A DNA stretch of 34,401 nucleotides, taken from a virus. This document shows, piece by piece, positions 15,778 to 34,401 of this stretch; within the stretch, counting starts at the first letter, position 1; each line of letters starts with the position of its first letter. The notes beneath the pieces were generated by a model. The model made no database searches and was not told the origin of the DNA. It saw only the letters and a program-made list of their open reading frames with translations. Position numbers and translations under genes: made by a program. The stretch is taken from positions 1-34,401 of IMG/VR virus record IMGVR_UViG_3300025146_000042, one strand, 5' to 3'.

Positions 15778-17592
15778 ATGGCAACACCCAATCCCTTTGC
15801 CAGCCTACCTGCTCAGGTGCGCAACTCGCTCACGCCACAGAACACGCAGCCCAATCCCTACACAGCGGCGCCTAGCGTTTGGTCCACGCAAGGAGCGTTC
15901 AGTGGCAATGCGCCAGCGAGCATGCCTACTGGATCGTCACCCGCGATAGCCCCTAGCGGGGCTGCTTTTGGAGGCTCCACGTCTACAACTGGAGCTCCTG
16001 GCACGTACGCGCCGCAGCCGGCGCCCGGGTACACCAACACCACCGGTCCAGGCGTGACCGTGAATGGGCAACCGCCGAGTCCATTTCCGCCACCAGCTGC
16101 GCCGAGCCCACTGCAGACGCCGGGCAACAACTTCACGAACCCGGGTTACTCCGAGCAGGGTCTGGAGCTGACGCAAAACCGCCTACTGGAGGACCCGTTC
16201 CAGAGCACGTTTCAGAACGCCGCTAGCGGGTCCCAGCAACCCGGTCAGGGCGAGAACTACATCAACCAGAACATGGGCTCTCTCGATGGCCCGGGCCAGG
16301 GCGAGCAGTACTGGAACCAGGTGAGCGGGCAGTTTCAGGACCCCTTCGCGGGCGAGCAGTTCGCCCGGCAAGCCACGCAGAACATGAGCCCAACTGGTCC
16401 CGCGGGAGCGTTCTTCAACCAAGCGATGGACCAGTACGGGGACTTCACCGGCTACTCTGGCCCGCAGGCGAGTGCTGGCCAGTACGGCACCAACGCGGCA
16501 AGCGGGCCTTTGGCTGGCCAGGAGTTCTACAACCAGGTCGGCGGCAACTACGACTCCACCGGGCGCTACACGGACCCGAACCTGGCCGCTGGCCAGTACA
16601 GTCAGACTCAGCAAGCCTTCGGCGACCTGCCGATTGCGAACTTCGATCCGTTCTACGATCGCGCGCGGCAGCTCGGGGTGCAGTCCTACAACCAGGACGC
16701 GGCAGGGCGCGGGGTCTACGGATCCAGCGAAGCGCTGAGCGGGGTAGGAAACGTGATCACCGACATCGAGGCGCAGCGCGCGAACCGCTCCTTCGATGCC
16801 GAGATGCAGCGCGCGCAAGAGCAGCGCATGCGTCAGGGCCTACTGGGCGAACAGGCACGCATGGGCGACCTGTCCAGTCAGGGCGCGTTCGGCGCAAACC
16901 TGGCAGGCGTTGAGACCTTCGGCAACCTCGCCAAGACCGCGGGCGAGCAGACCCTGGGTCAGCAGACGATGCTGGGCAACCAGGCACGCGACGTGGACAC
17001 CTCGGCGCAGAACGCCCAGGACAGCAACCTGCGCGGCGTGGAGGCATTCGGGCAGCTCTCGAACGCCGCAGACGCGCGCGAGACAGACCGCTTCACAGCT
17101 CGCACATCGGCCATGGACGCGGCCGATCGCACCGGTATCCAGCGTCTGCAGACTGGTGGAGACCTGTCCAACATGGCGGACGACAACGCGCGAGACGATT
17201 TCGTCGCCTCTAACCGTGCCGCGGTGGACTCGGGCAATCTGGCGGACCAGCGCACCAACACGGGTATCAGAGCGGCTGATGTCGGCTCACGTAACGACCT
17301 GGCGCGACTGGACTCGTTCAACCAGACGGCGAACACAGCCGAGGATTCGCGTCAGAAGCGCAACGAGTTCACGGCAAACATGACACGCCTGGTCGGCAAA
17401 GACCTCGCGGACCGGATTGGAAATGCAGCGAGCGAGTTTGACGGCAAGTCCCAGGCAGACTGGGAGAACTATGTAACTTCCACGCTGGCCCCGCTGATTC
17501 AGGGCTCCGGGCTCAGCGCCGCTGAACAGCAGGCTGAGATTGATGCCCTAATCAACGGCGGGAGCAACTTCCTAAACTACGCGACACGTTAA
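15778..17592 (+). CDS. Large Gln/Asn/Gly-rich ejection protein with internal repeats
   Basis: A 604-residue protein starting directly after the preceding stop. Residues 1-130 are Pro/Thr/Gly-rich and disordered-looking. Residues about 155-280 hold imperfect 17-24 residue repeats. Residues 280-500 are a long helical region with recurring 'FxxLxxxAxxxR' units, such as GVETFGNLAKTAGEQ and GVEAFGQLSNAADARETD. The end is a compact helical domain (DWENYVTSTLAPLIQGSG). There are no cysteines and no signal. Composition and place suit a virion-internal protein released with DNA. The enzyme content, if any, is not visible. Confidence 0.7.
   Translation: MATPNPFASLPAQVRNSLTPQNTQPNPYTAAPSVWSTQGAFSGNAPASMPTGSSPAIAPSGAAFGGSTSTTGAPGTYAPQPAPGYTNTTGPGVTVNGQPPSPFPPPAAPSPLQTPGNNFTNPGYSEQGLELTQNRLLEDPFQSTFQNAASGSQQPGQGENYINQNMGSLDGPGQGEQYWNQVSGQFQDPFAGEQFARQATQNMSPTGPAGAFFNQAMDQYGDFTGYSGPQASAGQYGTNAASGPLAGQEFYNQVGGNYDSTGRYTDPNLAAGQYSQTQQAFGDLPIANFDPFYDRARQLGVQSYNQDAAGRGVYGSSEALSGVGNVITDIEAQRANRSFDAEMQRAQEQRMRQGLLGEQARMGDLSSQGAFGANLAGVETFGNLAKTAGEQTLGQQTMLGNQARDVDTSAQNAQDSNLRGVEAFGQLSNAADARETDRFTARTSAMDAADRTGIQRLQTGGDLSNMADDNARDDFVASNRAAVDSGNLADQRTNTGIRAADVGSRNDLARLDSFNQTANTAEDSRQKRNEFTANMTRLVGKDLADRIGNAASEFDGKSQADWENYVTSTLAPLIQGSGLSAAEQQAEIDALINGGSNFLNYATR
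16243..16615 (+). repeat. Imperfect coding repeats, core GxxYxNQ
   Basis: Within the 15778-17592 product, about six to seven degenerate copies follow one another: GQGENYINQ, GQGEQYWNQ, AGEQFARQ, AGAFFNQ, AGQYGTN, AGQEFYNQ, AGQYSQTQ. Each is followed by a variable Gly/Ser/Asp/Pro spacer, giving a period near 17-24 residues. The shared pattern is Gly/Ala, Glu/Gln, aromatic, Asn-Gln. Confidence 0.6.
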
Positions 17593-27082: not shown

Positions 27083-27418
27083 ATGGCCGAAATTGGAGCC
27101 CTGATCACCTGGAGCCAGAACTTCACTAACTCGGCTGGCGCCGACGCAGACCCGACCGTGGTCAAATTCTACCTCCGGGAGGAGGTCGACGGCACGGAGC
27201 TCGAATGGACCTACGCTGCCGTACCAGTGGAGGGCACTGACTATCCGACCGGGATGAACGCCGTCGTCAAGGATAGCACTGGTGACTACCATGTTGACTT
27301 CGTGACCCGGAAGGCAGAGCGCCACACAGGCCGCTGGCGCGGCTCGGGGACCATCTTCCAGGCCTCAGCGTCAACCGTCTTCGTGCGCCACTCGCTGATT
27401 GAACTCGCCGAGCCATGA
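27083..27418 (+). CDS. Small Ig-like tail protein
   Basis: A 111-residue protein with alternating strands: ALITWSQNFTNSAGADADPT, VVKFYLREEVDGTELEWTYA, GDYHVDFVTRKAERHTGRWR, STVFVRHSLIEL. The order 'DPT.VKF...DG....Y......GDYHVDF......GRW..' matches a small immunoglobulin-like phage protein type often found near fibres. It probably packs on the tail tip. The start at 27083 follows the preceding stop closely, and the stop overlaps the fibre start (ATGA). Confidence 0.75.
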   Translation: MAEIGALITWSQNFTNSAGADADPTVVKFYLREEVDGTELEWTYAAVPVEGTDYPTGMNAVVKDSTGDYHVDFVTRKAERHTGRWRGSGTIFQASASTVFVRHSLIELAEP

Positions 27419-29712
27419 CCTGTACAGACAGGCAGCTCACCCAGGCCGAGCTCGAAGCTGCCTTCGAGCAGCAGCGCACCGGCGTCCAGAAGACCATCCG
27501 TCCCTTCTCGGGACAGGCTACGCCCGAGAACATCGTCGACTACCTGAACCGCGAGGTGTTTCCGGTCCTGAAGGCGTCTCGCGACGCGATCAACGAAGTG
27601 TTCACGCAGGTCGTGGATAACGCCTCCAGCGCCAACCCGCTGCGGTATCTGTTCTCGTCCAGTACGGTCAACGCCGACCCGACCAATGGCTTCTTGCGGC
27701 TCGACAACGCCACACAGAACCTGTCGACAACGATCCGCGTATCCCAGCTCAACGCGCGCCTGGTGGACGCCACGCCATGGCTGGAGGTCATGGCCGGGAG
27801 TTCCACGAGCCCGCTGGGTGTGGTTACCCTGCAGCACGCCAGAGACCCGGGCAGATTCATCCGGTTTGATCTGAACACGATGACGGACCAGGGCGCCTAC
27901 TGGGACCTCTCGGTGAGCGTCGTGGAGTCGAGCGGGGACAACCCGTTCACCGAGAACGACCCGGGCATCACCATCGGCTTTATCGCTGGAGTAGCCAGCG
28001 GCGGTACTACCGTTTCCCCAAGCGCCATCACGCCGATCGCAGACGACACCTTCCTCGCGAACATCGCGGGCGCCGTTGCATCCCCCGCAGCGGTCGCGCT
28101 CACCACGCTTGCGGGTGACGGCATCCAGGGCGGCGCGAATGCGGTGCTCAACATCGACGTCTCGGACTTCGCAGGCACTGGCCTAGAAGACGACGGAGCG
28201 GAGAACCTGCGCATCGCGGCTGCTGCAGCCGGAGCGGGGCTCACGGGCGGCGGAGGTTCAGCGCTGGCAGTTGGCGCAGGCACCCGGATAACGGTCAACG
28301 CGGACGACGTGCAGCTGGCCAGCGGTGCAGCCGAGACGTTTCTCGGCAACTTCACGGCGGGTGTAGCGGTAGCCGACTACCGCGCCGGCTCCAGCGTGGC
28401 AGGCGCAGGCCTGACCTACACCGCGGGTGGCACGCTGGCAGTCGGAGCGGGCACCAACGTAACCGTCAACGCGAACGACGTGGCCGTTACCAACTTCCCG
28501 CTCACTGGGCTGGCCACCCAGGCCGATGACACATTCCTCGCCAACATCAGCGGCGGCGCGGCCGCCCCAGCCGCCGTCGCGCTCACAACCATGGCAGGCG
28601 CAGGCTTGACTGGTGGCTCAAACGCCGTACTGGCGGTAGGCGCAGGCGATGGCATCGACGTAAACGCTGACGACGTAGCCGTGGACGTGACGGATATCGT
28701 CGACAACGTCTCGATCACAGAGGTCGCTACCAACAACATCCAGCGTGCCGCGCTGACGGGGTTTGCAGCAGCGAGCGCTGGTAGCAACGCCACGACCAGT
28801 GCCGAGCCGATCGTAACCTACTCGTCCAGCGCCAACATGAGCGCCGAGCGCGTAACCACGAGTTCTACCAGCGTCACGGTCTCTACCGGCGTCGCGAGCC
28901 AGATTGAGTTTCAGCGCGCGGCCATCACAGGAGAGGTCACGATCGCTGCCAACGCCAACGCTGCCACCGTCACGCGCTCCACGGACTTCCAGACGACTCC
29001 ATGGACTGGCAACCACGAATTCACTGGCAACGTCAGGCTTAACGGGACATTCGAAGTGCGGGGCCGCAGCGACGCCACGCTAGCGGCTGACGCTGATGAC
29101 TTCGACATGACCACGTTCAACGTGGCGCGCCTCGTGGGCAACGATTTTCGCCTGACCGGCATGGTGCCCAACGGCACCAACGGGCAGACGGTGCAGATCT
29201 TGAACGCCGACTCGGGTGACTCTCTGATTATAGGTCACGAAGATACTGGTAGCACCGCTGCTAACCGTTTCGTTTGTCCAGGGGGCGTTGACTTCCACTT
29301 GCAGCCACGCTCCGGGGTGTGGGCCCGCTACGACGACACTGCCGACCGCTGGTTTCTGCTCGACCGAGGACCGAACAACAAGATTCTCACCCCTGCTCAG
29401 ATCACCGCCAACCAGAACGACTACACCCCAACAGATTGGGAAACAGCCAACATCATCAGATTGTCAAGTGACACTGCTGGTCGCCTCATCACTGGAGCGG
29501 CCGCCGGATTCTCTGGCGAGCAGAAGTTGCTTATAAATACTAACTCTGTCGCTTCCGCCAGAAGCATATTTCTCACCATCGAAGACGCGAGTTCCACGGC
29601 CGCCAATCGGTTTCTTACCAGCAGCACAGGGCTAAATATCGCAGCCGGCGGCGTCGTTGCCATAGTATATGACGGCACGTCCTCTCGATGGAGACCTGTG
29701 TCACAGTTCTGA
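27415..29712 (+). CDS. Modular tail fibre / receptor-binding protein
   Basis: A 765-residue protein. Residues 1-65 are helical and probably attach to the tail (ELEAAFEQQRTGVQKTIRPF, NREVFPVLKASRDAINEVFT). Residues about 205-425 are repeated beta modules of the form 'ADDTFLANI...AAPAAVALTT', 'GAGLTGG', 'LAVGAGT.I.VNADDV'. Residues about 570-765 hold two related terminal units, each with 'STAANRF...' and then a 'Y D xx x x RW' segment (VWARYDDTADRWFLLD and VAIVYDGTSSRWRPVSQF). Such trimeric fibres recognise the host surface. No intramolecular chaperone domain is apparent. The start overlaps the upstream stop, and the end overlaps the next ATG. Confidence 0.85.
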   Translation: MTCTDRQLTQAELEAAFEQQRTGVQKTIRPFSGQATPENIVDYLNREVFPVLKASRDAINEVFTQVVDNASSANPLRYLFSSSTVNADPTNGFLRLDNATQNLSTTIRVSQLNARLVDATPWLEVMAGSSTSPLGVVTLQHARDPGRFIRFDLNTMTDQGAYWDLSVSVVESSGDNPFTENDPGITIGFIAGVASGGTTVSPSAITPIADDTFLANIAGAVASPAAVALTTLAGDGIQGGANAVLNIDVSDFAGTGLEDDGAENLRIAAAAAGAGLTGGGGSALAVGAGTRITVNADDVQLASGAAETFLGNFTAGVAVADYRAGSSVAGAGLTYTAGGTLAVGAGTNVTVNANDVAVTNFPLTGLATQADDTFLANISGGAAAPAAVALTTMAGAGLTGGSNAVLAVGAGDGIDVNADDVAVDVTDIVDNVSITEVATNNIQRAALTGFAAASAGSNATTSAEPIVTYSSSANMSAERVTTSSTSVTVSTGVASQIEFQRAAITGEVTIAANANAATVTRSTDFQTTPWTGNHEFTGNVRLNGTFEVRGRSDATLAADADDFDMTTFNVARLVGNDFRLTGMVPNGTNGQTVQILNADSGDSLIIGHEDTGSTAANRFVCPGGVDFHLQPRSGVWARYDDTADRWFLLDRGPNNKILTPAQITANQNDYTPTDWETANIIRLSSDTAGRLITGAAAGFSGEQKLLINTNSVASARSIFLTIEDASSTAANRFLTSSTGLNIAAGGVVAIVYDGTSSRWRPVSQF
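28030..28690 (+). repeat. Fibre shaft modules
   Basis: Two near-identical starts (IADDTFLANIAG...SPAAVALTTLAG and QADDTFLANISG...APAAVALTTMAG) and a more diverged middle unit (AAETFLGNFTAG) are each followed by an AVGAG...VNA(D/N)DV element. They recur about every 60-75 residues. This is a typical phage fibre shaft and a likely hotspot for recombination between phages. Confidence 0.6.
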
Positions 29713-30323
29713 TGAACGCCATCATCACTCTGCCGGTGCGCGACAACATCAATGCCGCGCTGCGCTCGGCCTTGGACGAGAGTGGCCTGCCCTGGCTGCC
29801 GATCTACGGTTCCAGCGACCTTCCTCAGGCGCGGTCCGTCCTGTTGACGCAAGCGCTAGCCCGCGGAGCGGATCGCGTTCTGTGCATCGACGCGGACATA
29901 GTCCCTACTGCGGATCAGATACTGAGGCTTGCGTGTCACCCTCGGGTAGACGCATGGGGAGCCGTTACCGGTCTCTACGCTCTGCGCTCCGGAGAGGCCT
30001 GGGCCTGCACAGCGCCAGCGAGCGAGACCGAGTCTGACGGCTGCCGGCTGGCAGACTACGCTGGTCTGGGCTTCGCGTGCGTATCGCGCCTCAGCCTGCT
30101 TGCGGTTCGGGACTCTTTGCCGCAGCTAGATGACCCCAAAGTGGGCCCATGGTGGCCGTTCTGTATCCCATTCGTCGGCGACAGGAATGGCCGCCTCGAA
30201 TACTGTGCGGACGACGTGTCACTATGGCGACGGCTACAGGCGGCCGGCACCCGTCTGTGGGCGGACACGCGGCTGGTTGTTGGTCATCAGGCGTTGATGA
30301 CTCTACATTCACCGCTGGGCTAA
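29712..30323 (+). CDS. Glycosyltransferase-like protein (GT-A fold)
   Basis: A 203-residue protein. I start at the ATG at 29712, which overlaps the fibre stop (TGATG), rather than the in-frame ATG 24 bases upstream. Features of GT-A enzymes are visible. A helix AQ-type stretch (LPQARSVLLTQALARGADRV) leads to CIDADIV, with a D-x-D metal/nucleotide-sugar motif at 60-62. YCADDVSLWRRLQAAGTRLW (164-183) then follows, ending in VVGH with His192, like the 'ED..fc.r....G..iw.....vgH' block of small phage glycosyltransferases. The donor and acceptor are unknown. It may modify host surface glycan, virion proteins or DNA. It is the last rightward gene of the structural transcript. Confidence 0.8.
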   Translation: MNAIITLPVRDNINAALRSALDESGLPWLPIYGSSDLPQARSVLLTQALARGADRVLCIDADIVPTADQILRLACHPRVDAWGAVTGLYALRSGEAWACTAPASETESDGCRLADYAGLGFACVSRLSLLAVRDSLPQLDDPKVGPWWPFCIPFVGDRNGRLEYCADDVSLWRRLQAAGTRLWADTRLVVGHQALMTLHSPLG

Positions 30324-30772
30324 CACCCCTGCTGTTTGCACCACTCCGCGGCCGCCAGCGAGTCCACCGTCCAGGGAATATCCTCGCCCAGATCGAACCT
30401 GGCCTTCATCAGCGGCGACCTGGGCACATGCCCATCGATGCCGAAGTGTCCAAACTCGTGCACCATGGCCCCCGTGAGGTAGTCGGCGCCGCCTTCCACG
30501 ATGTTCGCCTGCACCTTGATGGTCTCTCCGGAGTTGTTCATGCGCGAGTCCCACGACTGGCCCGTAAACGCCTGAACAATGACCTGCGCGTCACCGCCGC
30601 TATCAACCAGCTCCGGGCACCAGTCGACCGGCGCCGCGCACCAAGCATCACGTGCTCGCGCGGCCGCGATAGCTACGCTCTCGTGCAGGCCAGGCGCCAA
30701 CGTGATCGTCTGCGGCGGAGCCGCTGCACACCCCACCAGCATCAGCCCAATGATCAACGGTGATACTCGCAC
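30320..30772 (-). CDS. Putative lipoprotein metalloprotease (metzincin-like)
   Basis: A 150-residue product. I start at the GTG at 30772, five bases after GAGG, giving a signal peptide RVSPLIIGLMLVGCAAAPP with a lipobox LVGC (lipidated Cys15). H105, E106, H109 and H115 form HEFGHFGIDGH, which has the metzincin spacing HExxHxxxxxH. Its Gly is one place earlier than in the usual HExxHxxGxxH. Met122 follows and could serve as the Met-turn. Mature Cys45, 52, 145 and 150 could form disulphides. It is probably an exported zinc protease. Targets are unknown, with peptidoglycan, envelope proteins or receptors as candidates. Its stop overlaps the rightward gene's stop. It overlaps the upstream Cys-rich gene by 19 bases. 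Confidence 0.8.
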   Translation of the reverse strand: MRVSPLIIGLMLVGCAAAPPQTITLAPGLHESVAIAAARARDAWCAAPVDWCPELVDSGGDAQVIVQAFTGQSWDSRMNNSGETIKVQANIVEGGADYLTGAMVHEFGHFGIDGHVPRSPLMKARFDLGEDIPWTVDSLAAAEWCKQQGC

Positions 30773-30933
30773 TCTGACCTCACGCACGTCCCGCCGCAGC
30801 ACCGCTCGGGCTCAGCCGAGCCCATCGGCTGAGTCTTCGTGGCCGACTCTTTCCAGCGATTCTGGTGCTCTTTGCACCACGTCTTGGCGGTGCAGTACAT
30901 GCACCATTCTTCGCACCATGCATGGTGGTACAT
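30754..30933 (-). CDS. 59-residue Cys-rich microprotein
   Basis: The frame runs from ATG 30933 to TGA at 30754 on the minus strand, with AGGG six bases upstream of the ATG. It starts MYHHAWCEEWCMYCTAKTWC and contains Cys7, 11, 14 and 20 with His23, then Cys45, 46, 50 and 55 with His58, enough for two metal sites. A polar linker joins them. It fits exactly between the membrane-protein gene (stop 30936) and the protease start, in the same operon direction. The dense cysteine pattern and good junctions make chance unlikely. Function is unknown. Confidence 0.65.
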   Translation of the reverse strand: MYHHAWCEEWCMYCTAKTWCKEHQNRWKESATKTQPMGSAEPERCCGGTCVRSECEYHR

Positions 30934-30935
30934 GG

Positions 30936-31127
30936 TTACCCTGCCACCACGATCAGCGCGAAGACCGCAAGACCCACAGCGCCTACGAACCCCAGCGTCT
31001 CGGCGAGCAGCCGGAAGCCGTCGCCGATGTAGAAGCGCTCCGGGTAGGAGCGGCGCTTGGGTGGCAGGATAACGCCCACGCTGACCAGTCTACGCACTTC
31101 CCATACGGTGTGGCGCACTTTGGTCAC
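30936..31127 (-). CDS. Small single-pass membrane protein
   Basis: About 63 residues, read from a GTG at 31127 that overlaps the upstream stop (GTGA). Alternative GTGs at 31130 and 31145 would extend it slightly. The N-terminal half is basic (KVRHTVWEVRRLVSVGVILP, KRRSYPERFYIGDGF). Residues about 43-62 are one hydrophobic segment (ETLGFVGAVGLAVFALIVVA) that ends the protein. The charge pattern places the N-terminus in the cytoplasm. A late membrane gene beside an exported protease could be a lysis or export accessory, but there is no direct evidence. Confidence 0.6.
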   Translation of the reverse strand: MTKVRHTVWEVRRLVSVGVILPPKRRSYPERFYIGDGFRLLAETLGFVGAVGLAVFALIVVAG

Positions 31128-31588
31128 CACACTCGCACCGAACACGCCTGAGAGGCACTGGAGACCAGCACGGAGGGCTGCGCGGGCGAGGCCTCGGGGC
31201 CCTCTGGCTGCAGGCAGACGCCGCACACCACGTCGCGTCTCCAGGGCATTCCAAAGCATCCTTGGCAGAGCACCCGCGGCACCCGCGGCGCCTCGCCGGC
31301 CATCGGCCGCATCTGCTGCCCCAACCCCAGCTCACGGATGCCCTTGTAGTACTTCTCGTGACGCGCGGCGTTATCTTTGGGCGTACGCTTGTGCGAACGC
31401 GCCTGCCTACCCGGACGCTCCTTGTCGTACTTCTTCTGCCGCGTTACGCGACCGTGACGTTCTCGAATCTCGGCGCAGGTGAAGCACCGTACGGCGAGCG
31501 CTCCACGATTGGCCTCCAATTCCTTGCCGCAGGGAGTCTCCTCCCACGGACCCGGGCAAATCCTGGGGTTTTGTGCTACATGTTCCAT
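31124..31588 (-). CDS. Double zinc-ribbon protein
   Basis: A 154-residue product from ATG 31588. An upstream in-frame TTG at 31624 is less likely. The first metal site uses Cys11, Cys20, Cys35 and Cys38 (RICPGPWEETPCGKEL, VRCFTCAE). A basic linker follows (about 44-80, rich in Lys and Arg). The second site uses Cys108, 111, 122 and 125 (LCQGCFGM...VVCGVCLQ). The basic linker and ribbons resemble small phage DNA-binding or recombination-mediator proteins, and HNH-like ancestry is possible, but there is no catalytic His pair. It lies upstream of the membrane and Cys-rich genes in the leftward operon. Confidence 0.7.
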   Translation of the reverse strand: MEHVAQNPRICPGPWEETPCGKELEANRGALAVRCFTCAEIRERHGRVTRQKKYDKERPGRQARSHKRTPKDNAARHEKYYKGIRELGLGQQMRPMAGEAPRVPRVLCQGCFGMPWRRDVVCGVCLQPEGPEASPAQPSVLVSSASQACSVRVW

Positions 31589-31725: not shown

Positions 31726-32076
31726 ATGCTGTCAGCATTCAAGGTGGCCTCTCGCGCATTCGTGTTCTCGGCCTCTTGGCTGCTGGCGTTCAGCCTAGTC
31801 CGGTGCGCCGGGCTACAGCTGACGCCCGAGCAACAGGCGGCTGTCGACCTGTTTGAATGCCGGGTACGCGCATTGGAGCCGTACGTTGGTGAGATCTATG
31901 ACACGTCTGACCTGGTCAGGCAGTTCTCAACCGATGACGTTGAGCTCGGAAAGATGCTCAACTCTCTCGGATACGAGCTCCCGGAGATTCTCAAGGCCGC
32001 CGACGCCTTCCGATCGTGCCAGCCAGACCCCGCCCTCGTGGCGCCGCCGCCGCAGCCCGGGGGGAAGGTTTTGTGA
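31726..32076 (+). CDS. Exported or membrane-anchored small protein, head of rightward island
   Basis: A 116-residue protein with AAGGA before the ATG at 31726. Residues about 5-27 form a signal or membrane segment (KVASRAFVFSASWLLAFSLV), followed by R-C-A-G, which is not a canonical lipobox. The remainder is acidic and helical (LTPEQQAAVDLFECRVRALE, VELGKMLNSLGYELPEILKA) with a Pro-rich end. It is the first of three rightward genes of membrane proteins in an otherwise leftward arm. Given the endolysin nearby, an o-spanin-like or other lysis role is possible, but not shown by sequence. Confidence 0.7.
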   Translation: MLSAFKVASRAFVFSASWLLAFSLVRCAGLQLTPEQQAAVDLFECRVRALEPYVGEIYDTSDLVRQFSTDDVELGKMLNSLGYELPEILKAADAFRSCQPDPALVAPPPQPGGKVL

Positions 32077-32361
32077 TTGGAGTACCTGCTTTGGGCCGCG
32101 ATTGCCTGGGGGTCAGCGTCAACCGCTCTGGGGCTCTTGTCGCTCTGCGCAATCTGGGCAGAGGGTCGCATGGCGCGCTCACGCCACGCAGCCGTCCAGG
32201 CCGACGTTCGTGGACTCCGCCAGCAAGTCGCCAATATCGCTTCCATGCTCCTGAAGGCCGGATTCAAACGCGGAGCCTCCAGAGACTGGAGCGACAACGA
32301 GCTGGACACGCAGTTACTCGGGGACTCGGATGTTTCGTTCAAGTGGAAAAAGAAGGACTGA
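32077..32361 (+). CDS. Membrane protein with coiled coil (possible lysis accessory)
   Basis: A 94-residue protein from a TTG at 32077, immediately after the preceding stop and after a GGGGAAGG ribosome-binding site. Residues 2-27 are a membrane helix (YLLWAAIAWGSASTALGLLS). Residues 30-62 are a charged helix, likely a coiled coil (AVQADVRGLRQQVANIASML). The tail is acidic and then basic (KWKKKD). One N-terminal membrane helix plus a coil is the plan of i-spanins, so a spanin is possible. A competing frame from GTG 32073 is Arg/Gly-rich and unlike protein. Confidence 0.65.
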   Translation: MEYLLWAAIAWGSASTALGLLSLCAIWAEGRMARSRHAAVQADVRGLRQQVANIASMLLKAGFKRGASRDWSDNELDTQLLGDSDVSFKWKKKD

Positions 32362-32365
32362 CCTG

Positions 32366-32632
32366 ATGGCTGCGGGCAAGATTCAGATCGACCGTCAGAC
32401 GGTTCTGCTGCTGGTTGGCCTACTCGGAGGAGGTGGCAGCGTCACCAAGGTGGTCACCGACATCTCGGACATCAAAGAGAGGGTGGTTCGGATTGAGACT
32501 CGCATGGATGAACAGCGTCGGGCTGACCGACGCTCCGAAGTACCTCGATGGCTCCAGCGAGAGCCCAGCGCTTCTCAATCCGCCCCAGAGCAGAAACGTG
32601 CGAGTCTCCCTTCGGCATCACCGCATCCATAG
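32366..32632 (+). CDS. Holin-like small membrane protein
   Basis: An 88-residue protein with AAGGA before the ATG at 32366. Residues 9-29 are hydrophobic (RQTVLLLVGLLGGGGSVTKV). The sequence then runs TDISDIKERVVRIETRMDEQ, a short coil typical of phage holin and XhlA-type proteins. The last 35 residues are Ser/Pro/Arg-rich and lie antisense to the RusA gene, so this end may be a low-constraint extension. A holin would time release of the endolysin encoded on the other strand. The evidence is topology and neighbourhood only. Confidence 0.65.
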   Translation: MAAGKIQIDRQTVLLLVGLLGGGGSVTKVVTDISDIKERVVRIETRMDEQRRADRRSEVPRWLQREPSASQSAPEQKRASLPSASPHP

Positions 32633-32882
32633 TCCCGCCCAACAAATTGTCCAAGTCGGGGCGGGACCGGTGAGGGGCACCGACATGGGCTGACCGCTTC
32701 TTGCTGCTCCAGGACCTCGGCATTGCGATCCAGAAGATGATCGAGTCCCCATCCTGAAGCGTGCACCCGAGCGCTCGCAGCTTGTCCGCGAACGCCCGGT
32801 AACGCATCACGCACGGACGCTGCTCCCAGCGGTCCGACTGTGTCTGCCGGACCTTGGCGGTTGGCGAGACGTTGTATATCAC
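32472..32882 (-). CDS. rusA: RusA-family Holliday junction resolvase
   Basis: RusA dimers cut Holliday junctions and branched DNA, helping phage recombination or clearing branches before packaging. The 136-residue product has RQTQSDRWEQRPCVMRYRAF (12-31), then IAMPRSWSSKKR, then the signature SRPDLDNLLGGTMDAV with Asp76 and Asp78. Asp93 comes later (KGDSHVSALGRIEKRW). These match the catalytic Asp residues and following basic segment of the family. The start is the GTG at 32882, which overlaps the stop of the upstream 52-residue gene (GTGA). Longer versions of the frame would overlap two other genes. Its 3' end overlaps the rightward membrane gene by 161 bases. Confidence 0.9.
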   Translation of the reverse strand: MIYNVSPTAKVRQTQSDRWEQRPCVMRYRAFADKLRALGCTLQDGDSIIFWIAMPRSWSSKKRSAHVGAPHRSRPDLDNLLGGTMDAVMPKGDSHVSALGRIEKRWALAGAIEVLRSVGQPDAVHPCESQSEPPSL

Positions 32883-33037
32883 CGATGCACCTGCTCCGTT
32901 GTGCACTCGCCCAGGTTCCATCCCGCGGCTTGCGCCGCGAAGAAGGCCGTCTGCGCCACCACGCGCTTCTGCTGGCCAGATGCCATGTGCGTCACCAGCC
33001 ACTCTACTGGGCGATTCGGCGGAGCGTATTCAGGCAT
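32879..33037 (-). CDS. 52-residue small protein upstream of rusA
   Basis: The frame runs from ATG 33037 to a TGA overlapping the rusA GTG. GGAGA lies about seven bases before the ATG. The product begins MPEYAPPNRPVEWLVTHMAS and continues as an amphipathic helix (QQKRVVAQTAFFAAQAAGWN) to a short polar tail. The well-placed ribosome-binding site and both overlapping junctions support a real gene. It overlaps the 34-residue gene by 34 bases. Function unknown, possibly a rusA regulator or partner. Confidence 0.6.
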   Translation of the reverse strand: MPEYAPPNRPVEWLVTHMASGQQKRVVAQTAFFAAQAAGWNLGECTTEQVHR

Positions 33038-33108
33038 GGATCGTCTCCGAATGAAGCCAGGTCATGGCCGAGGTTCAGCGCCGCCGTCACCGCAATTGCG
33101 TACTTCAT
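33004..33108 (-). CDS. 34-residue peptide after endolysin
   Basis: The ATG at 33108 overlaps the endolysin stop (ATGA) and has GGAG upstream, inside the endolysin end. The product is MKYAIAVTAALNLGHDLASF followed by GDDPCLNTLRRIAQ. Its short hydrophobic N-terminus could be weakly membrane-associated. The tight junction favours translation. The size and lack of motifs leave function open, and it may be a leader peptide for the genes that follow. Confidence 0.45.
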   Translation of the reverse strand: MKYAIAVTAALNLGHDLASFGDDPCLNTLRRIAQ

Positions 33109-33599
33109 TGTTTCTTCTCCGCCAGTTCAAAGTGGACCAGGTCCACCAGTGGTTTCTTGCCCGGGTTCTGCAGCTTGTAGCGCTCGCAGTACACGGTGTG
33201 CTCCATCTCAAGGGACCTCCCAAGCTCATTCAGTGTGCGGTCCCACACTCCTCCCCAAACGATCGGGATGCGCATAAACCGCGCTGCGTCCTGGTAGGCC
33301 CTGGCTACGCGGTAGCACTGCGCAGCGCCCCAGGTGTACTCGCCGCGCACCCATGGCACCGCGTCGACGGCTAACCCGTCCTGGTGCTTCGAGCGCTCAG
33401 CGCGCGTGGTGCCGTTGGCCAGGTTTATGGAGTGCTCCAAGTCCGTGCGTATGCCATCGTGGATGCCGAAGTCGACGAAGCAGGTCGCCAGCGCGAGCCT
33501 GGCCACAGCCTGAAGCCTGGGCGCTACTCCGGATAGCTCGCTTTCGCTTTTGGAGCCGAATGCCCAGTCGCTCTGCGACGGAAGAACCAGGCGTACCAT
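33105..33599 (-). CDS. Endolysin, M15-type peptidase
   Basis: The 164-residue product resembles L-alanoyl-D-glutamate/VanY-type endolysins (such as the T5 lysin), which cut peptidoglycan stem peptides. I see a core GIHDGIRTDLEHSINL (45-60). Then comes SKHQDGLAVDAVP with zinc ligands His72 and Asp79, a WGG element (115-117), and LVDLVHFEL with Asp153 and His156. The spacing matches the family's HxxxxxxD...DxxH metal site. The ATG at 33599 overlaps the previous stop (TGATG), in preference to an upstream in-frame ATG. There is no signal peptide, so a holin or pinholin is needed for export. Confidence 0.9.
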   Translation of the reverse strand: MVRLVLPSQSDWAFGSKSESELSGVAPRLQAVARLALATCFVDFGIHDGIRTDLEHSINLANGTTRAERSKHQDGLAVDAVPWVRGEYTWGAAQCYRVARAYQDAARFMRIPIVWGGVWDRTLNELGRSLEMEHTVYCERYKLQNPGKKPLVDLVHFELAEKKQ

Positions 33600-33949
33600 C
33601 AGTCCTCGACCCTGCGCCAACCCTCGGGCGTGTGCTCGCGCTGCCGGATGACCTGGTAAACCGCGCCCTGCCCGCCTCCGAGGCGCAGCGTCTCGTGGGT
33701 GTCGTGCGGCCGGTGGTGGATCACGTCGCAGTGATCAACGCTTTCCAGCCGCAGGTACGAGATGAGCGGGTCTCCGCCCGTGTAGTGCACCACGCCGGTG
33801 TCATCGATGGCGTGGTGATGGCCCGTCTCCGAGTGGGCGACGATGAGCCGGGCGCCCTTGCGGGGCGCCACCTCGAAGCCGACCGGCACGGTCTCCACGC
33901 GACGAAACATCACATCACCCTGCGCACCCATTCGTTCGATCGTTTTCAT
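33599..33949 (-). CDS. QGDV-motif conserved hypothetical protein
   Basis: A 116-residue protein. The ATG at 33949 has GGAG seven bases upstream. It starts MKTIERMGAQGDVMFRRVET, then shows KGARLIVAHSETGHHHAI, then the HCDVIHHRPHDTH segment and GAVYQVIRQREHTPEGWRRV at the end. This matches my memory of a widespread phage/bacterial protein of unknown function with 'RQGDVLLxPV ... GExTGHxHxI ... QRxYxP...RRV'. Its clustered histidines (HHH, HH, H...H) could bind metal in a small cupin-like barrel. It is often encoded beside a DUF6745-type protein, as it appears to be here. Function unknown. Confidence 0.8.
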   Translation of the reverse strand: MKTIERMGAQGDVMFRRVETVPVGFEVAPRKGARLIVAHSETGHHHAIDDTGVVHYTGGDPLISYLRLESVDHCDVIHHRPHDTHETLRLGGGQGAVYQVIRQREHTPEGWRRVED

Positions 33950-34087
33950 CTGTTTTCTCCTGGCCCGTAGGCGTTTCTGATAGGCGGCTGCGCAGGCCCT
34001 GCATGCCCGGCAGCCGTTGGACTTGACACGGCCCGCTGAAGTCTCAGGTTCGCCATTCGAGATCCGTCTCCTCTTTGTTGAGCCCAT
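33950..34087 (-). other. Possible N-terminal zinc-knuckle extension, or a short gap
   Basis: The frame of the QGDV protein stays open upstream to an ATG at 34087, adding 46 residues with SNGCRACRACAAAYQKRLRA, a Cys-x2-Cys-x2-Cys knuckle followed by a basic helix. The good ribosome-binding site at 33949 argues for the short protein, while the knuckle-like sequence argues for something being encoded. A different frame (ATG 34054 to TGA 33946, 36 residues) also ends in an ATGA overlap. Only one of these can be right. Confidence 0.35.
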
Positions 34088-34401
34088 AAGTCCAGTAATT
34101 GGCTTCGCGCGCCGTGGCCATCTCCGGAGGCACGGGGAGCGCGAACGTCCGTCGAGTGCCGCACTCGACCTTGATGAACCGAGAGCGCGGCGCCTGCGGC
34201 AGGTCCACCTCCAGGAGCTGGCCGATCTGCGGATTGGGGTCCGTGTCGATGACCCGGCTCTGCAGCGCCGCCAGGATCGCGTGCCAGCCGAGCAGCTCCA
34301 CAGCTGCGCGGCGCAGCTCGGTGTTCTGCTGGCCGAGCGCCAGCGCCGGCGTCAGCGACGCGCGGTCGGTGATCCAGTTGGGCGGCACACGGACGCCGTC
34401 C
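34044..34401 (-). CDS. DUF6745-like protein, cut by window edge
   Basis: The C-terminal 119 residues of a larger leftward gene whose start is beyond the window (the frame is open at the edge). The visible part reads DGVRVPPNWITDRASLTPAL, then LRRAAVELLGWHAILAALQS, and after a link RFIKVECGTRRTFALPVPPE and EANYWTYGLNKEETDLEWRT. The order 'GV.VP..v', 'RR...E..G', 'C..T.r...L.VPP', 'A..WtyGl..ee' fits my recollection of the C-terminus of DUF6745-type proteins found with the QGDV family. Function unknown. Confidence 0.65.
   Translation of the reverse strand, partial: DGVRVPPNWITDRASLTPALALGQQNTELRRAAVELLGWHAILAALQSRVIDTDPNPQIGQLLEVDLPQAPRSRFIKVECGTRRTFALPVPPEMATAREANYWTYGLNKEETDLEWRT

Follow-up and report, generated by a model that had tools for sequence, protein, structure and literature searches.

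Several phage lipoproteins are known to exclude superinfecting phages, among them Llp of T5, Cor of T1 and phi80, and Rtp45 (PMC9586334, PMC12685063). Llp is a proven exclusion lipoprotein, and its gene, which is expressed early, lies adjacent to and downstream of the gene encoding the receptor-binding protein (PMC9586334). A metzincin of phage origin, Mtz, has been described in Listeria together with Tim, a TIMP-like lipoprotein (PMC8235301). Metzincins are defined by the presence of a Gly or an Asn at position 8 of the zinc-binding motif (PMC11674741). Here we describe a phage gene, P0001, whose product is probably a membrane-tethered, metzincin-like protein encoded beside a putative tail-fibre gene.

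The window (the whole stretch of DNA that was analysed, 34,401 nucleotides) is a 34.4-kb linear virus contig, for which no DNA similarity to known phages was found. Its terminase shares no more than about 32% identity with those of phages of rhizobia, Pelagibacter and roseobacters, which were among the best matches, and judging by such genes a Gram-negative host is only likely. The rightward genes encode the terminase, the portal, head-closure and virion proteins, followed by a long repetitive virion protein (27415..29712, +) and a glycosyltransferase-like (GT-like) gene (29688..30323, +; phrog_1574). The repetitive protein gave no match to a named family, and the N-terminal 210–340 aa are conserved in the relatives described below; its position and repeats led us to regard it as a putative tail fibre. 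The leftward genes at the right end include a RusA-like resolvase, which is a DNA-metabolism gene (32472..33002, −), an M15-type endolysin (33105..33620, −; phrog_465, E = 9e-33) and a protein with weak similarity to HNH endonucleases. A partial DUF6745 protein (34044–34388; Pfam E = 7e-12) is located near the end of the contig.

P0001 (30320..30772, −) is convergent with the GT-like gene, and the stops of the two genes overlap by 4 bp. It encodes 150 aa from a GTG start, and a GAGG Shine–Dalgarno sequence is present at 30778–30781, five bases 5′ of this codon. The GC content by codon position is 0.65/0.50/0.79, as compared with 0.64/0.52/0.77 in an established gene of the same phage, and the antisense ORF shows the mirror pattern; given this agreement, the minus-strand reading is the coding one. 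The leftward gene of 150 residues proposed in the earlier note is thus a real coding gene. Two ORFs without a family lie upstream in the same direction: a Cys-rich ORF of 59 aa (30754..30933, −) that overlaps the start of P0001 and has several His residues, possibly binding zinc, and an ORF of 107 aa with a hydrophobic C-terminus (30936..31259, −).

The N-terminal leader, VRVSPLIIGLMLVGC, is hydrophobic (residues 1–17) and contains the lipobox LVGC (residues 12–15, L12-V-G-C15; 30728..30739, −), as is typical of bacterial lipoproteins (SPII). This lipobox had been noticed earlier, and the alignment strengthens its assignment, since all homologues have a hydrophobic leader terminating in Cys. 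The residue at +2 after the lipobox Cys is Ala, which would allow sorting to the outer membrane in hosts of the E. coli type.

When P0001 was searched as a single sequence, no match was obtained in PHROGs, Pfam, NCBIfam, PDB sequences, INPHARED phages, IMG/VR or GTDB contigs, and its identity was resolved through synteny. Twelve related contigs were found via the structural protein encoded at 15778–17592, and a scan of these for HExxHxxxxxH revealed three with the motif HELGHALGGDH (G001, G004 and G011), in all of which the ORF carrying the motif encodes a lipoprotein directly beside, and convergent with, a GT-like gene. In the 13 records, including the window, the four that have the GT-like gene are the same four that have the metzincin-like lipoprotein, although several of the other records end before this place and absence there is not proven. 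Further searches yielded L028 and L035, which show the same arrangement, and in five related phages a convergent lipoprotein with HELGH[AV]LG[GA]DH occupies the same position beside the GT-like gene. A sixth homologue, L031, is encoded directly after a tail-fibre-like gene of an apparently unrelated phage, and L032 is a secreted bacterial matrixin-like protein. Other motif matches were set aside after inspection of the ORF lists by eye: the strand matched in L002 and L022 runs antisense to a long ORF, and the L003 match is read in another frame than the long ORF within which it falls; those in G002, G007 and G008 look random.

P0001 is 24–28% identical to the homologues, and has in common with them its position, its orientation, the lipobox, a Trp in the backing helix, HExGHxxxxxH, D137 and the C-terminal CxxxxC. 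The comparison of P0001 with the family by hhalign gave a probability of 57% and a pairwise E of 1e-4, and its score exceeded those of 150 of 150 full shuffles and of 149 of 150 motif-preserving shuffles. The profile search of the family, which the earlier note had proposed as a check, was less clear: with hmmsearch P0001 was the first ORF in the window, but with an E of 0.09 and with a non-motif ORF close behind. Two generic viral metzincin profiles were discarded, since nothing but the motif accounted for their signal (17 and 59 of the 150 shuffles that kept the motif, respectively, scored equally); beyond the motif, signal was added only by the syntenic family profile. P0001 did not match Peptidase_M10 (Pfam PF00413), and the homologues reached 11.8–13.3 bits with this profile, below its cut-off of 24. 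Homology of P0001 to the family is likely, and it is carried mainly by synteny.

The zinc-site motif of P0001, HEFGHFGIDGH (residues 105–115; 30428..30460, −), was located by pattern scan and in the alignment, and the spacing previously read in it is correct (H105-E-F-G-H109-F-G-I-D-G-H115). At the DNA level the window contains a single match to HExxHxxxxxH, where shuffles predict 0.07, and the expectation for one 150-aa ORF with the composition of P0001 is about 1e-4. H105, E106, G108, H109 and H115 are invariant in the alignment (A5). All six phage homologues conserve HExxH, and P0001 and five of the six have the third His at the canonical position 11, as in metzincins (clan MA(M)), so that the conservation expected for these His and Glu residues was largely found. 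The canonical spacing is broken in L031, which carries HELGHALLMHRGH; the L031 protein (L031:4842-5387) has HELGHALLMHRGHTAHEH, in which either extra residues separate the second His from the third or the third ligand is a different one. At position 8, P0001 has Ile, with Gly at positions 7 and 10, in agreement with the earlier observation of a shifted Gly; five of the six homologues have Gly at this position and L031 has Leu. In metzincins, Gly8 is needed for the turn to the third zinc ligand. With Ile in place of the Gly or Asn of clan MA(M), P0001 falls outside strict metzincin membership.

A candidate Met-turn residue, M122 (30407..30409, −), was placed by the homologue alignment seven residues after the third His, within PLM. 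The same spacing is found in L035 and L032, which agrees with the Met-turn position previously attributed to this residue, but conservation does not follow: L035 has Met at this place, whereas four homologues have Leu followed by Ser. A Met-turn role of M122 is therefore only plausible from the alignment. Replacement of the Met-turn residue of MMP-2 by Leu or Ser changed its activity little, and replacement by Leu impaired protease C, another metzincin (PMC1266349). Considering Gly8, the Met position, the conservation of HExxH and these replacement data, the family plausibly works in the manner of metzincins, with less certainty for the P0001 copy. Two other regions align with the homologues. 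The predicted backing helix (residues 31–46, ..AARARDAWCAA; 30635..30682, −), also seen in the model, corresponds to AAxRWSAATGC, and the C-terminal CxxxxC (C145 and C150; 30323..30340, −), which follows D137, belongs to a pattern common to P0001 and the homologues (VDxxxxxxxCxxxxC / IDxxxLxxVCxxLxC), in which C145 and C150 probably form a disulphide.

The structure check gave different outcomes for the family and for P0001. The core of the AlphaFold model of homologue L020 has a pLDDT of 90–96; Foldseek matched it to snapalysin (E = 2.7e-4) and MMP1 (E = 3.3e-4), and a VIA search matched it to snapalysin (Z = 12.9, rmsd 2.5 Å over 117 aa), karilysin (Z = 12.3) and MMPs (Z = 11–12). The predicted fold of L020 is clearly that of a metzincin. 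In contrast, the model of P0001 has a pLDDT of 51, and of less than 50 after the second His; the top Foldseek match of this low-confidence model was MMP-11 (E = 0.86), its VIA search returned no metzincin, and fold searches with it were rejected as evidence. The order of elements in this weak model (helix 31–46, strands, helix 95–111 with the motif, helix 138–148) parallels that of L020. The earlier description of a lipoprotein with a metzincin-like zinc site is consequently upheld by the conservation of the motif and by the fold of the homologue, and weakened by the absence of Gly or Asn at position 8 and by the poor model of P0001 itself.

The orientation of the gene gives a hint of its expression. 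In the five relatives with the same slot, the metzincin gene runs opposite to the virion and lysis genes, and in L027 the strand that it occupies also carries genes for a 5′-3′ exonuclease/annealing protein and a DUF559 nuclease. In the window, P0001 is on the strand opposite the late virion genes, which it shares with RusA. This arrangement of strands suggests that P0001 may be expressed outside the late operon. A scan of the P0001 region for promoters found nothing. In three relatives, the tandem element GTGTTGCACCGA[CG]GTGTTGCACGTG is present just upstream of the ribosome-binding site of the metzincin gene (L018:1060-1095, L020:1045-1080 and L034:6444), once per contig searched, and an imperfect copy is found in L028 (upstream of 4983); this element is possibly an operator or a phage promoter. 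The tandem GTGTTGCAC element is absent upstream of P0001.

The slot also holds other proteins. In G002, G008 and G009 it is occupied by a lipoprotein of about 75–93 aa that lacks a zinc motif and shares a Cys-containing C-terminus, CQ..VY.DR..GYC..W..C. Small Cys-containing slot lipoproteins of relatives without a detected metzincin are encoded at L135:1-308 (G002), L131:18758-18997 and L138:16406-16636. G002 and the metzincin phages have near-identical upstream DNA, leader and linker (GTGTTGCACGTGGAATCCTAAAGGATG; CGCCAGAGCGAGCGATCTA), which suggests an exchange of mature domains behind a single leader; the swap with an identical leader was seen in one phage, G002, and the leader region of the window differs from that of G002. 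When the shared leader was used as a search pattern to look for further cargos, only phages that were already known came up. A more far-reaching idea, that the slot trades receptor-blocking lipoproteins for an outer-membrane-tethered, receptor-cleaving metzincin with a displaced Gly behind one leader and promoter region, seems to us rather unlikely.

The explanation that we prefer is that of a tethered metzincin-like protease that disables a receptor or another surface protein and thereby excludes superinfecting phages. A short Sec/SPII leader and an acylated Cys15 would be followed by a minimal matrixin-like zinc endopeptidase domain of about 135 aa; its zinc would be bound by H105, H109 and H115, its general base would be E106, and M122 would be positioned beneath the metal. 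P0001 would be tethered to the envelope of the infected cell (probably to the outer membrane if the host is Gram-negative), where it could cleave a nearby exposed envelope protein; if this were the receptor, or another surface protein needed by an incoming phage, its loss in the infected cell would lead to superinfection exclusion. We infer zinc binding, proteolysis, early expression and the substrate of P0001, and the exclusion role is suggested by genomic context and by analogy. As a whole this explanation stands, in our judgement, at the point of balance, which combines a probable tethered metzincin-like protein, a lower confidence in catalysis by the P0001 copy, and a role that is tentative: given a tethered protease, superinfection exclusion or receptor modification falls somewhat short of an even prospect. 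We place this role ahead of the others because an exchangeable lipoprotein slot by the tail fibre resembles the arrangement of T5 Llp, and we favour, in order, exclusion or receptor modification, accessory lysis and a non-catalytic blocker. Of the roles put forward in the earlier note, the genetic context agrees best with superinfection exclusion and least with adsorption.

An accessory role in lysis, in which late cleavage of an envelope or wall-associated protein would weaken the cell in the manner of Listeria Mtz with its lipoprotein target Tim, is unlikely but deserves attention, since Mtz and Tim enhance phage lysis and are encoded downstream of holin/lysin in Listeria prophages (PMC8235301), the metzincin gene of the relatives abuts a lysis cassette (small lipoprotein, membrane/coiled-coil protein and M15 endolysin), and P0001 shares its strand with the M15 endolysin of the window. 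Nevertheless, in the five metzincin-bearing relatives the gene is opposite to both the lysis cassette and the virion genes, Mtz is secreted whereas P0001 is anchored, and the neighbouring small lipoprotein is also present in G006 and G009, in which no metzincin was found, and so is probably not a dedicated Tim-like partner. Receptor or envelope modification is thus favoured over lysis by a gene that is opposite to the late genes, beside the tail fibre and in a slot shared with small lipoproteins. Concerning the lysis region of the window itself, three small rightward ORFs at 31726–32632 (a lipoprotein-like protein with two Cys, a membrane protein and a weak holin match, phrog_689) are similar to the lysis cassette that is conserved in the relatives, and are candidate o-spanin/holin genes; the M15-type endolysin is leftward here and co-oriented with the virion genes in the relatives, which points to a rearranged lysis region. 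Such cassette genes are also found in G006 and G009, without a detected metzincin.

The remaining alternatives concern the site and the location of the protein. P0001 could be a pseudo-protease that has lost the turn Gly and, built on a metzincin scaffold, works in the envelope as a lipoprotein without catalysis, blocking a receptor for instance. The Ile at position 8, the non-canonical spacing of L031 and the small lipoproteins without a zinc motif in the slot of G002, G008 and G009 all agree with this, but the three His and the Glu have been kept at only about 25% identity to the homologues, which suggests selection on the site, and we consider this alternative doubtful. A virion-associated or tail-linked protease used in adsorption or entry is very unlikely: even though the gene adjoins a tail-fibre-like gene, also in the apparently unrelated phage L031, a lipidated protein would remain in the host envelope, and neither in the window nor in the five related phages does the gene run in the direction of the virion genes. 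The least probable alternative, which we regard as hardly credible, is a chance motif in an unrelated lipoprotein. It would account for the lack of a family match for P0001 alone and for the weak profile score, but the motif, with the low expectation given above, is at the exact place where the lipoproteins of the relatives carry the same motif, and the common Trp, Asp and CxxxxC, as well as the results with the shuffles, also argue against it.

If a tethered protease acts on the receptor, as our preferred explanation proposes, superinfection exclusion by an enzyme would join that by blocking lipoproteins, which is already known, and phage receptors could be sought with a small, defined enzyme. 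In addition, a metzincin family of about 150–195 aa that tolerates the loss of Gly8 and of the Met is useful for testing what a metzincin zinc site needs.

The view that a surface-anchored protease encoded by a phage is unusual was overstated, given that one degenerate pattern, HELGHxLGxDH, matches 87 stretches of viral contigs, and that both annotated phage M10/matrixin proteins and the studied Listeria Mtz (PMC8235301) exist. Phage metzincins are already known; the new features are that the protease itself carries the lipid anchor, that its gene sits in a slot next to the tail fibre and that Gly8 has been lost. Among the annotated phage proteins, those of an uncultured Caudovirales (A0A6J5P205) and of Maribacter phage Colly_1 have the matrixin fold matched by the L020 model, but are only 12–19% identical to the homologue in this comparison by fold. 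Snapalysin (M7, 1kuh) and the matrixins (M10: karilysin and MMPs) resemble the minimal metzincin core of L020, with the backing, active-site and C-terminal helices in the same order as in its model; the phage family differs from them in being lipid-anchored, in having no Pfam M10 assignment, in often having Leu in place of the Met and in its probable C-terminal disulphide, and P0001 differs further by lacking Gly8. Mtz–Tim is also a case of a phage metzincin that is encoded near lysis genes and acts at the envelope, but in that system a secreted protease has a lipoprotein as its partner, whereas here the protease itself is the lipoprotein. We found no dedicated Tim-like partner; the small lipoprotein ORF at 31726–32076, whose pattern is similar to that of the small lipoprotein in the lysis cassette of the relatives, is not favoured as such, since G006 and G009 encode relatives of it and no metzincin was detected in either. 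Llp, Cor and Rtp45 are, like P0001, phage lipoproteins, and the Llp gene is next to that of the receptor-binding protein just as P0001 adjoins the tail-fibre region; they are, however, small non-enzymatic blockers, closer in size to the slot lipoproteins of G002, G008 and G009, whereas P0001 is a putative protease.
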